Shown here: piece by piece, positions 16,245 through 40,218 of the stretch
How the letters are laid out: each line of letters begins with the position of its first letter
How positions within the stretch are numbered: position 1 is the first letter of the stretch
NCBI GenBank assembly: GCA_947484275.1
Contig: CANKOY010000007.1
Span: 1-64,000 of the forward strand
DNA: 64,000 nt
Direction of reading: 5' to 3'
DNA from: Planctomycetota bacterium
GTDB lineage: Bacteria > Planctomycetota > UBA1135 > GCA-002686595
The notes under the pieces: model-generated
What the model saw: only the letters and a program-made list of their open reading frames with translations
The model's database searches: none
Told to the model about the DNA's origin: nothing
Translations under genes and position numbers: made by a program

Positions 16245-16246
16245 AC

Positions 16247-16474
16247 CTAGCAGTGCGTTGAAAAAGGCCCGTAGCGAAACAGAGCGGGTGAGGGCGAGGC
16301 CAGGAGCGCGACAGAAAGTCGCCCAGGGGGCCCCGCGTTAGAGCGCGAAGCGCTCGTAGCGACTGCTCCTGCGGAGCCTTCGCAGTGGGGTGCGGCCTTC
16401 CTGGCCGCCGAGCGCGACGCCGCGGCGCCGAAACACGCACTGGCGCAGTCGGGGCTTCTTCAACGGGCTGCTAG
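16247..16474. repeat. CTAG-ended palindromic repeat, copy A
   Basis: A 228-bp element with imperfect inverted ends: left CTAGCAGTGCGTTGAAAAAG and, read on the other strand, right CTAGCAGCCCGTTGAAGAAG. The inner part contains GACGCCGCGGCG, shared with copies B and C. It has no coding capacity, so it resembles a MITE or a large REP-type element. Its right-hand CTAG supplies the TAG stop of the thiol:disulfide gene. Confidence 0.75.
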
Positions 16475-18321
16475 GGCTTGGCGCCCGGGAACATCTCCAG
16501 CACCTCCGCCACCTCGCCCCGCGTCACGATGTCGCGGAAGCGGTAGGGGGCCTCCCATTCCTTCCCAGGCGGGTGGATGGTCATGAAGGGAATCGAGCGA
16601 CCGCCAAGGGAATGCAACAGGCGCTCGCCTGCCTTCGTGCGCGGAGATTTCGAAGTCAAGTCGACTTGAATCGGCACGACGCCTTTGAGAGTCAGCAGGT
16701 CGGTGATGCGCTTGGAGCTGTACACGACAGCTTCATTGGTTTTGCAAGTCAGTCACCAGTCTGCGGTGAAGTCGAGCATCACCGGCCGCCCTTCGGCTCG
16801 ATAGCGAGCCAGGCGCTCGGGATCGAATTGCTCCCAGACGAGCGAGCCCTCTTCGTTGGTGAACGCGCGCTGCACCGGGCCGAACATCAGGTACGAGCCC
16901 GCGCCCGCGATCGCGACCGCAACGACGAACGTGCGCAAGTGTTGCAGCGCCGTCTGCTCGAAGGTTGCGAATCTCCCCCACCACCAGCAGCCCAGTGCAA
17001 CGAACACGAGCATCGCCACCGTGAACAGCAGGAGATCCTGGCGCACCGAGACCATCAAGAACACGACCGTCGCCAGCAAGAGGAAGCCCGTGGAGTGCTT
17101 GAAGGTCTGCATCCACGCGCCAGGTTTGGGCAGGTACTTGAGAAAGCCCGGATTCGAGGTGAGCACCACATAGGGCGCCGCCATCCCGACGCCGACCATC
17201 ATGAATACGGCCACGATCACGTGTTGCGGCTGGGTCACGGCCCAGGCCAGGGTGCTGCCGAGGAACGGACCGCTGCAGGGTGTGGCGAGAATCGTTGCCA
17301 TGATCCCCTTGAAGAACGCGTCGCGAGCGCCTTCGCGTTTGACCGACGCCAGTTCGCCGACCTTCGAGGGCAGGCCGATCTCGAACACGTCGAACAGGGA
17401 CAGCGAGAACGCGAAGACGATCGCGATCATCACGATCTTGAATGGCTCCGATTGGAACTGTGCTCCCCAGCCCTGGCCCGCGAATGCGGCGAGTCCTGCG
17501 AGCACGGCGAAAACCACCAGGATTCCGCCGGCGAAGGCCAGTCCCAGTTGGAACACGCGCTTCTTGGATTCGCCTGCTTGCTTGACGAAGGACAACACCT
17601 TGATCGAGACCACCGGCAGCACGCAGGGCATCACGTTGAGCAACGCTCCGGCGATGAACGCGAACAAGAGCCACAGCCACAGCGAGCGGTCCACTTCCCC
17701 GCGCGATTCGAAGTCAGGCGGGACGAAGGCGTCCCAAATCGGCGAGTTCGCCGCGGGCGAGGTGTCCACGCGCGACGGGACCGCGCTGGCCGCATTCGAC
17801 ACCGCCGCTCCGATGACCAAGTCGGCGGGAAATTTGGCGAACAGCTCGTCCTTGCCCGGGCCGTCAGACTCCAATTCCTCGAAGTAGGGAATGCAGCCCT
17901 TTTCGTCGCAGGTCAAGCCGTCGATCGCGGCCGTGACGAGCGCGGGGTCCACCGTGCCCGAGGCCATGCGACCGCGCGCGTAAAGCAGAATCGTGCCCTC
18001 ATGTCCGTAGATCCAACCTGGGCCTCCGCTCGGAGCCTTCATCCCGGGCGCCGGGAGTTTGATCGGCTCGGGAAAGCGCGTAGCCGACCACTCGAGGCCC
18101 TCGCCGCCCCACTGCACGGTCGTCGCCGCGCCGACGCCACCGCCGTTCCCGAGGGTCTCGTGGTAAATGTGCCAGTGCGATTCGAGCCTGACCTGCAGGA
18201 CCGCGCGCACGTCGGCTCCCTCGGCCCGGACGTACAGAGTCGAGTTGGCCTTCTGCTGGGCCTGCAGCGGAAGCGCCCATGCGGCTAACAGCACGAGCAG
18301 CAGCGATAGTCGTTTGATCAT
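16471..18321 (-). CDS. dsbD: Thiol:disulfide interchange protein DsbD, probable selenoprotein
   Basis: Moves electrons from cytoplasmic thioredoxin across the inner membrane to periplasmic thiol proteins. From the ATG at 18321 (signal peptide MIKRLSLLLVLLAAWALPLQ) it has a periplasmic alpha domain with the pair in TCDEKGCIPY (Cys138, Cys143). A multi-helix beta domain follows with MPCVLPVVSIKVL (Cys233) and ATPCSGPFLG (Cys349). The C-terminal thioredoxin domain reads FTADW-TGA-LTCKTNEAVVY, with TGA at 16753-16755 as residue 523. Families have WCLTCK here, so TGA replaces the first redox Cys, and the frame stays open for 93 more codons encoding the rest of the fold (RSIPFMTIHPPG). Selenocysteine (UxxC) is the best reading; a nonsense mutation is the alternative. 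Full length is 616 residues. Confidence 0.85.
16711..16748 (-). promoter_or_regulatory. Candidate bacterial SECIS hairpin
   Basis: Just after the in-frame TGA (16753-16755), AGCTGT pairs with ACAGCT (16727-16732 with 16716-16721) around the loop CGTGT. A lower CTTG/CAAG stem (16745-16748 with 16711-16714) can add to it. The apical loop begins 27 bases after the TGA and has G in its second position, which fits the usual bacterial SECIS spacing and loop rule. It lies inside the coding region, as bacterial SECIS elements do. Confidence 0.6.
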
Positions 18322-18360
18322 TGTTGGTTGTTTGGGGGGAGCGCAGGAGCGACGAGCTCC

Positions 18361-18539
18361 CCAGCAGTGCATTGGAAGAGGCCCGAAGAGAAGCGGAGGT
18401 TGTTAAGGCGAGGCAAGCAGCGCGTTAGAAAGTCACTCCCAAGCGGCCCCCATGGCCGTTGAGTGTGACTTTCCGAGGGCGACGCCGCGGGGCCGAAACA
18501 CGCTCTGAGCTAGTCGGGACTTTTTCAAAGGGCTGCTAG
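18361..18539. repeat. CTAG-ended palindromic repeat, copy B
   Basis: A 179-bp element homologous to copy A. The left end is CCAGCAGTGCATTGGAAGAG and the right end, on the other strand, is CTAGCAGCCCTTTGAAAAAG. It shares internal blocks with A, such as GGCGAGGC, AGAAAGTC and GACGCCGCGG. Its own inner GAAAGTCAC and GTGACTTTC arms make a strong hairpin. It lies 40 bases upstream of the dsbD start, between divergent genes, so promoters may lie in or beside it. Confidence 0.75.
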
Positions 18540-18690
18540 CCTACCGGTTCCGGTGGGCGGGGCACCCCTGCGAGCGCCGACCCCAGTTTCCAGCCACTTT
18601 CTTTCGCATGGCTTACGGGCAGGCCAGAGAGTCCAGCCGCCTGGCTACCATGCCGATGAGACGCCTGTCCGCCTGCTCAGGAGAAACCCG

Positions 18691-22334: not shown

Positions 22335-24017
22335 TCAGCCCCGGCGGCGGGCGATTCTCTCGCGGATATTTCGCCACTCTTCGAGGCCGAGCAGCGCGCT
22401 CGCCCCGACATAGGTGACGACCGCCGCACCGATCGCCGCGGCGAGCGCCGGCAGTTCTCGAAGACCGCTGACCTCTGCGGCTCCGACCTCCGCGTCACCG
22501 ACGATCAGGTGTCGCGTGACCCAGGCAGCCAGCGCGCAGAGGCTGGCGGCGATCAGCATCTTGAAAATCCTGCCGAAGAATCCGCTCCCGGTCGCCGGGA
22601 GGCCAAGCCGTCCCTTGAGTCCGGGCCAGAGCCAACACAGGTTGGCCCAGGCGGCAATCGAAGTGGCCAGGGCGAAGCCCGAGGCGTCCATCTTCATGCC
22701 GTACACGAAGAGCACGTTGAGCGCGGTGTTGACCACCAGCATGACCGCGGCGATGCGCACGGGGGTCCTGAAGTCCGAGAGCGCGAAGTAGGCGCGGCTG
22801 GTTAGCGCAATGGCGCCCGTGGGGAGGATCGAGAGGGCGAGCATCGTGAGGGCGCTCGAGGCTCGCCCCACACCCTCAGAGGTGTAGTTGCCGTGTTGGA
22901 AGAGCACCGTGCAGATCGGCCGCGCCAGAACCACGAGGCCTAGGCTGGCGGGCAGGGCCAGGTAGCAGACCGCCAGTTGGGCACGGTCGTGCAGCGCGCG
23001 CAGCTCGTCGCGTTTTCCGGTGTGCCCCAGTGCCTTGAGGAGTGGAAAGACCGCGGCCGTGGCCGCCGTGGCGATCAGGGCCACCGGGAACTGCTGGATG
23101 CGCGTCGCATAGTGGAAGGCCGCCGAACCGCCAGGATCAAGCATTCCGTAGGCCATCAACCCGTCGATCATCACGTTGACCTGGTAGACCGCGGCCCCCA
23201 TGGCCAGGGGCGCGCTGGTGCGCAGGACGTCCCAGGCCCCGGCGATCGGGTCGAAGCCGGCGGCCGGGGCGCCCCCGTAGAGACCGTGGCGGCGCAGGGC
23301 CGGGATCTGGATCGCGAGCTGCAGGAATCCAGACAGCAGCACGGCCCAGCACAGGACCCGAGCCATATCGAACTGCGTGTCGTCGGAGATCGTCGCGCGG
23401 GTCCCCGACCAGGGTACGTCGTGCTGCCAGAGCAGGAAGACGAGCGCCGCGATCCAGACCACATTGAGCATCGCCGGCGCGATGCTCGACACGCGGAACT
23501 CACCGCGCACCTGCAGGGCCCCGGAGAAAATCGCCGAGAGACACACGAACACGACGTAAGGCATCAGCCTCACAGTCAAGTCGCGCACGGGCTCAGGGTT
23601 CACGCCAAGCCATCGCCAGCCGAAGAGCGGGGTCGTGTCCGGCAAGAGCGCCACCGCGGTCATCAATCCGACGCAGACGGCCAGCAGAATCCACGAGGCC
23701 ACGTGGGCCGTGCGCTGGAAGAGGGCCCGCCCGGCGGCTTCGCCGTGGTCGTGATCGACTTCGGTCAACTTGGTTTGCAACGACGTCGAAAGCGCGCCCT
23801 CGCCTAGCAGACGGCGAAACAGATTCGGGACGCGCCAGGCGGTGACGAAGGCGTCGTTGATGATCGACTTGTCGCCGAACAGGGCCGCCATCACGGATTC
23901 GCGGGCGTAGCCCATCACGCGCGACACGAGTGTCAGCGCGGAAACTAGCGCGGTGCGCTTCACCAGCGAGCCGTGGCGCGCTACGACATCAGGCGGCGCG
24001 TCGGGAGGCAAACTCAC
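22335..24017 (-). CDS. murJ: Lipid II flippase MurJ
   Basis: Flips the peptidoglycan precursor lipid II across the inner membrane. The 560-residue product has about 14 hydrophobic segments and the family N-terminus: TALVSALTLVSRVMGYARES, then LFGDKSIINDAFVTAWRVPN and LFRRLLGEGALSTS. Later MOP-fold signatures are VYQVNVMIDGL and QFPVALIATAATAAVFPLL. The GTG at 24017 is the likely start. Between it and yqeY lies only a palindromic element. It supports a peptidoglycan-containing envelope, as does dapF. Confidence 0.95.
   Translation of the reverse strand: MSLPPDAPPDVVARHGSLVKRTALVSALTLVSRVMGYARESVMAALFGDKSIINDAFVTAWRVPNLFRRLLGEGALSTSLQTKLTEVDHDHGEAAGRALFQRTAHVASWILLAVCVGLMTAVALLPDTTPLFGWRWLGVNPEPVRDLTVRLMPYVVFVCLSAIFSGALQVRGEFRVSSIAPAMLNVVWIAALVFLLWQHDVPWSGTRATISDDTQFDMARVLCWAVLLSGFLQLAIQIPALRRHGLYGGAPAAGFDPIAGAWDVLRTSAPLAMGAAVYQVNVMIDGLMAYGMLDPGGSAAFHYATRIQQFPVALIATAATAAVFPLLKALGHTGKRDELRALHDRAQLAVCYLALPASLGLVVLARPICTVLFQHGNYTSEGVGRASSALTMLALSILPTGAIALTSRAYFALSDFRTPVRIAAVMLVVNTALNVLFVYGMKMDASGFALATSIAAWANLCWLWPGLKGRLGLPATGSGFFGRIFKMLIAASLCALAAWVTRHLIVGDAEVGAAEVSGLRELPALAAAIGAAVVTYVGASALLGLEEWRNIRERIARRRG

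Positions 24018-40214: not shown

Positions 40215-40218
<4 letters not shown>

Follow-up and report, generated by a model that had tools for sequence, protein, structure and literature searches.

DsbD is a main route by which reducing power reaches the cell envelope in many bacteria. The locus described here raises the question of whether such a protein may carry selenocysteine (Sec) at one of its redox positions or whether its gene is simply interrupted. In the window (the whole stretch of 64,000 nucleotides of a Planctomycetota contig that was analysed), a DsbD-type frame on the minus strand (18321-16471) runs over 616 codons with a single internal stop, a TGA at codon 523. The first-pass annotation, made from the sequence alone, had placed this TGA directly after FTADW and had the same frame resume with LTCKTNEAVVY, form a thioredoxin fold and end at a TAG. 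Translation confirmed the coordinates and the peptides on both sides (LDFTADW before, LTCKTNEAVVY after), and the Pfam match and the AlphaFold model agree with the fold. The thioredoxin continuation therefore stands, but its length was given as 84 residues and 93 follow the TGA; 84 aa is only the open reading frame that a gene caller would open at the next GTG.

Table 1. Features of the dsbD-type gene, in positions of the window
Feature	Position	Strand	Remarks
dsbD-type gene with one UGA read-through (predicted)	16471-18321	minus	616 aa including Sec523; TAG stop 16471-16473
Signal peptide-like start MIKRLSLLLVLLAAWALPLQAQ	18256-18321	minus	Predicted from sequence
DsbD-alpha (N-terminal Ig-like), residues 31-150	17872-18231	minus	Pfam DsbD_N, Foldseek, invariant C138/C143
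Redox Cys of DsbD-alpha	C138 17908-17910; C143 17893-17895	minus	Invariant in alignment
DsbD-beta transmembrane domain, residues 215-424	17050-17679	minus	Pfam DsbD_TM; both Cys invariant
Redox Cys of DsbD-beta	C233 (MPC) 17623-17625; C349 (TPC) 17275-17277	minus	Invariant
DsbD-gamma thioredoxin domain, residues 496-616, UGA inside	16474-16836	minus	Pfam Thioredoxin_7, Foldseek
In-frame TGA, predicted Sec523, first position of UxxC	16753-16755	minus	
Resolving Cys526 (TGC) of UxxC	16744-16746	minus	
Predicted bSECIS hairpin AGCUGU[CGUGU]ACAGCU	16716-16732	minus	6-bp stem; loop starts 26 nt after UGA

By its architecture, the predicted protein is of the DsbD type: a beta domain with two Cys, an alpha domain with a Cys pair and a gamma domain with UxxC are found, and all six DsbD redox positions are present (C138/C143, C233/C349 and U523/C526). 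Pfam DsbD_TM (PF02683) reaches 83.8 bits over residues 215-424 against a cut-off of 27.1, Thioredoxin_7 reaches 49.9 bits over residues 496-582 with the TGA inside the match, and DsbD_N, at 20.7 bits over residues 31-150, stays under its 25-bit cut-off. Foldseek matched the alpha part to the nDsbD structures 3pfu, 1l6p and 1jpe, while the best matches of the gamma part were the E. coli DsbD-gamma crystal structures 1uc7 and 2fwf. The AlphaFold model (mean pLDDT 77) builds one thioredoxin fold across the TGA position, with a helix beginning at residue 524; in this fold, a helix start just after that point marks the classical place of the catalytic motif. The protein lies outside the narrow NCBIfam subfamily model NF001419 (158.7 bits, cut-off 330), and a Pfam search found no rhodanese domain in it. 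Its nearest named DsbD relatives are from Planctomycetota. The assembled genome (101 contigs, 88% complete by tool estimate) yielded no other full-length DsbD, so the window gene may be the only one that this genome has.

The gene is flanked by two copies, in the same orientation, of a dispersed repeat of ∼190-225 nt (16245-16475 and 18360-18540, both minus), with inverted repeats (TAGCAGxxCGTTGAAAAAG) at its termini. The dsbD frame uses the first TAG of the downstream copy as its stop codon. Further repeat ends lie at 40217 (+) and 46626 (+) and on another contig of the same genome (C47), and one copy folds far better than its shuffles (z -4.3).

Does the stretch behind the TGA belong to the gene? 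Its 93 residues share 34-46% identity with eight Cys relatives in alignments of 88-92 residues, and this identity, the Thioredoxin_7 match across the TGA and the single modelled thioredoxin fold together argue that it is no chance frame. Apart from codon 523, the frame shows no other damage. A general recoding of UGA was ruled out, since TGA is the ordinary stop of neighbouring genes in the window (RNR, HDOD, FeoB and MurJ).

The first-pass annotation had proposed to look at residue 523 in homologues, and this comparison speaks for Sec. Across 154 genomes of the class, the equivalent codon was read in 132 DsbD-type genes; it is TGA in 98, TGC in 26 and TGT in 8, and never TAA or TAG. In the aligned region, none of the 98 TGA genes has an in-frame stop besides this one. 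The window gene itself shows a hallmark of selenoprotein genes, a single in-frame UGA that aligns with Cys or UGA in its homologues. One further gene with a listed TGA (L289) has TGC at this codon and was dropped. The eight closest relatives, from the same family and 50-58% identical to the window gene, carry TGC or TGT, and within the class the window gene is the sole TGA member of its own close subfamily. A second DsbD subfamily of the same family (FTG; 25-30% identity to the window gene) has TGA in most members, with FTGxTUxNCR versus FTGxTCxNCR as the typical motifs. Outside the class, the FTADW subfamily, to which the window gene belongs, has TGA members in L118, L130, L309 and L310: L130, from a Planctomycetota MAG, reads FTADWUATCK, and L309 and L310, two genomes of one other family, read FTADWULTCKTNE as in the window. 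SelA is present in the genomes of L118 and L130. The gene of L118 (4429-6192, plus strand), also from a Planctomycetota MAG, encodes a DsbD-type protein with two tandem thioredoxin domains, both with an in-frame TGA (WULTCK and WUTECK). Several of the Cys relatives (L022-L029) have a second, upstream DsbD_N-like domain in the same open frame, which adds 190-235 residues; the window gene has none.

The search for selA, selB, selC and selD in the rest of the genome, likewise proposed beforehand, recovered the full Sec machinery: a tRNA-Sec with anticodon TCA (70.1 bits, gathering score 47), SelA (416 bits), SelB (309 bits, or 342 with its C-terminal part) and SelD (295 bits), the matches to SelB and SelD exceeding their cut-offs. 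Rfam and tRNA searches of the 64-kb window itself gave no matches. As far as its genome shows, the organism can decode UGA as Sec. Its SelD gene has an in-frame UGA in the active-site loop (GUAGK), and one in-frame TGA each occurs in 6 of 18 AhpC/TSA-family matches of the genome, in the contexts PGUT (a peroxiredoxin) and WUPPC (two), WUGPC, WUGGC and WUGSC (TlpA-like; the six genes are L262, L266, L267, L268, L272 and L276). To judge from these genes, the genome holds a sizeable redox selenoproteome. Scanning the window for further frames with a UGA plus hairpin yielded one place, at 23036 (+), with no gene signs. In the class at large, the presence of SelA was uninformative about Sec-DsbD: SelA is found in 144 of the 154 genomes, many of them carriers of Cys-DsbD, and most of the ten without it are less complete assemblies.

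A bSECIS-like hairpin soon after the UGA is another hallmark of selenoprotein genes, and the window gene has one (Table 1). Its folding energy is only average among shuffles (z -0.3); energy proved uninformative here, and the useful signal lies in the loop sequence and in the stem as compared with Cys homologues. The loop CGUGU resembles four of the loops from the genome's other selenoprotein genes (CGUGAUC, CGUGA, CGUGC and GGUGC, besides GGUC) and differs from GGUC, the commonest among relatives. Such hairpins are rare in the window, with ∼0.0014 expected per 30 nt for a loop pattern that was picked after the data had been seen. The codons between UGA and hairpin end unusually often in A or T (GC3 of 3/8 versus 0.84 gene-wide; 0.5% of windows of 8 codons reach so low a value), a bias to be expected where RNA structure acts as a constraint.

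The relatives show the same association between UGA and hairpin. In the FTG subfamily, a hairpin CCGGC-GGUC-GCCGG starts ∼40 nt past the UGA. Of 89 distinct sequences, 71 have GGUC as the loop, and the stem covaries (352 of 445 cells paired, where 1000 column shuffles gave 319 at most; relatedness uncorrected), while the pairing is mostly absent from Cys genes of this subfamily. A hairpin with a stem of at least 5 bp and a loop starting with [C/G]GU, 16-48 nt after the codon, was present in 72 of 98 TGA genes versus none of 26 Cys FTG genes (p 1e-12). For the FTADW subfamily (stem of at least 6 bp, [C/G]GU loop, 16-37 nt after the codon), it was present in all six TGA copies versus 1 of 88 Cys copies (L113; p 9e-9). 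The six copies represent about four independent lineages, L309 and L310 being mutually dependent, as are the two domains of L118, and the p-values are therefore too optimistic. In the six Sec copies, the hairpins sit 22-26 nt after the UGA; both TGA domains of L118 are followed by GGAAC[GGUCU/C]GUUCU.

The Sec machinery, the TGA in most class relatives and the hairpin strongly support what the first-pass annotation had inferred, a TGA read as Sec that would give a UxxC motif in a membrane electron transporter. We put at roughly 0.94 the probability that the window gene encodes a Sec-containing protein-disulfide reductase of the DsbD type, with UGA 523 as the predicted Sec codon. An ordinary Cys DsbD gene that has TGC or TGT in the cell and was corrupted in base calling or assembly would fit the codons of the eight nearest relatives and the fragmented state of the assembly. 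However, the error would have struck the one codon out of 616 at which 98 relatives show TGA, in a genome that holds a full Sec machinery and has TGA in several further redox genes, and in front of a host-type hairpin that nearly all Cys relatives lack. A random error at a shared TGA codon with such a SECIS hairpin behind it is very unlikely.

A real nonsense mutation would leave a decaying dsbD, the translation of which ends at Trp522 with no working gamma domain. That TGA is a normal stop in neighbouring genes and that the window gene alone has it in its close subfamily would be in keeping with decay, but the 93 residues beyond it remain in frame, match a thioredoxin fold and keep their identity to relatives, the frame is otherwise undamaged and the assembled genome yielded no second full-length DsbD; we regard this reading as even less probable than a sequence error. 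The lowest probability of all goes to a selenium-free decoding of UGA 523, in which near-cognate or suppressor reading would put in Cys or some other amino acid. The Sec machinery can misinsert Cys under selenium shortage; yet the tRNA with the TCA anticodon was identified as tRNA-Sec, UGA ends the neighbouring genes, a SECIS-like hairpin is present, and this analysis found no support for non-selenium decoding at this codon.

If UGA 523 is indeed read as Sec, how did the window gene come by it? In an unrooted tree of 68 rows, it groups with the Cys genes of four genomes (G035-G038; support 98) inside an all-Cys set. The FTG subfamily forms one side of a fully supported branch, and the Sec/Cys label requires at least 9 changes on this tree, which, being unrooted, does not formally separate gain from loss. 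That this gene alone has Sec while its relatives have Cys, and that its hairpin is placed elsewhere and has a loop unlike the FTG type, fits a separate gain best. Going by these sequences, the window gene's Sec was probably gained from Cys within its own lineage, independently of the large FTGxTU group of Sec-DsbD genes in the same class. We also lean, with some reserve, towards a broader scenario in which Sec-DsbD would be the usual transmembrane thiol conduit of the class and Sec would have been gained more than once at the gamma position, with a separate hairpin for every gain; the window gene would then be a lone gain in a Cys subfamily, taking the place of the usual Sec-DsbD.

At the molecular level, the ribosome would arrive at UGA 523, SelB loaded with Sec-tRNA(UCA) would bind the hairpin ∼26 nt further downstream, and insertion of Sec would give W-U-L-T-C-K. 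If the protein works like E. coli DsbD, cytoplasmic thioredoxin would hand electrons to the Cys233/Cys349 pair in the membrane domain, from where they would go to the Sec523/Cys526 selenenylsulfide of the gamma domain and then through Cys138/Cys143 of the alpha domain to oxidised envelope proteins; the final acceptors may be the TlpA-like selenoproteins of the same genome. Such a transfer from thioredoxin to the envelope is what the domain architecture suggests. Sec523 would act as the gamma-domain nucleophile, where E. coli DsbD has Cys461. Because selenols lose their proton much more easily than thiols, faster transfer or resistance to over-oxidation is the likely gain.

For annotation, it matters that, of the class's DsbD-type genes read here, about three quarters carry a UGA that standard gene callers treat as a stop, so that these genes would look truncated. 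Around a hundred related bacteria have a DsbD gene with the same predicted substitution, split in two by gene finders.

The domain cd02953, which we take to be a thioredoxin domain of the DsbD-gamma type, gives the earliest sign of Sec at this place. Under it, the 2008 GOS marine survey lists 22 selenoprotein sequences with UxxC, the motif of the window gene, as 'Trx-like 2 (thiol disulfide interchange protein)'; in that table the entry is a marine-metagenome row, given without full-length membrane protein, host or distribution (PMC2398784). TsoB is the only entry under which DsbD is named in a 2026 inventory of 119 prokaryotic selenoprotein families, which lists TsoB with two Sec in a UxxxxU motif and also has a 'thiol:disulfide interchange protein' (PF13098, UxxC) (PMC13188914). 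The latter shares name and UxxC with the window protein but is filed outside the DsbD_TM architecture, a contrast drawn from its description only. TsoB (NCBIfam NF045694), a rhodanese/DsbD fusion-like selenoprotein, is the best NCBIfam match of the window protein at 169.4 bits, far below its cut-off of 805; like the predicted window product, it is a selenoprotein with a DsbD-like part, but the window protein has one UGA and lacks the rhodanese domain. The first-pass annotation had known of no well-described Sec-DsbD family. This holds for full-length proteins: searches of the open literature (subscription papers and supplements lay outside) for a paper on Sec-DsbD turned up only the 2026 review and the GOS table, and described neither Sec in a full-length DsbD nor a bacterial class in which it is the majority form, although the GOS row and TsoB came earlier. 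In the open literature, Sec at the gamma-domain position has thus been glimpsed before, but in neither of these two settings.

The closest known counterpart is E. coli DsbD (reference families NCBIfam NF001419 and Pfam PF11412, PF02683 and PF13899). The window protein shares its alpha-beta-gamma layout, with all six redox positions occupied; Foldseek and phmmer matched the gamma structures (1uc7 and 2fwe-h), and Foldseek the alpha structures. It differs in the first redox residue of the gamma domain, a predicted UGA-encoded Sec in place of Cys461, which in E. coli attacks the alpha domain as nucleophile. The pKa of E. coli Cys461 is 10.6, due to Asp455 and Glu468, and this high value is thought to shield the reduced domain from side reactions (PMC3961690). 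Most members of the FTG subfamily, Sec and Cys alike, have Asn at the place of Asp455 (VNFTG for VDFTA; L131, L133-L138 and other FTGxTU genes), and the window protein keeps Asp. Its equivalents of the two acidic residues are Asp517 and Glu530, at the same -6/+7 spacing. A selenol at the Cys461 position with both acidic residues kept would allow a direct test of why, at a place where E. coli holds reactivity down, evolution would install a more reactive nucleophile.
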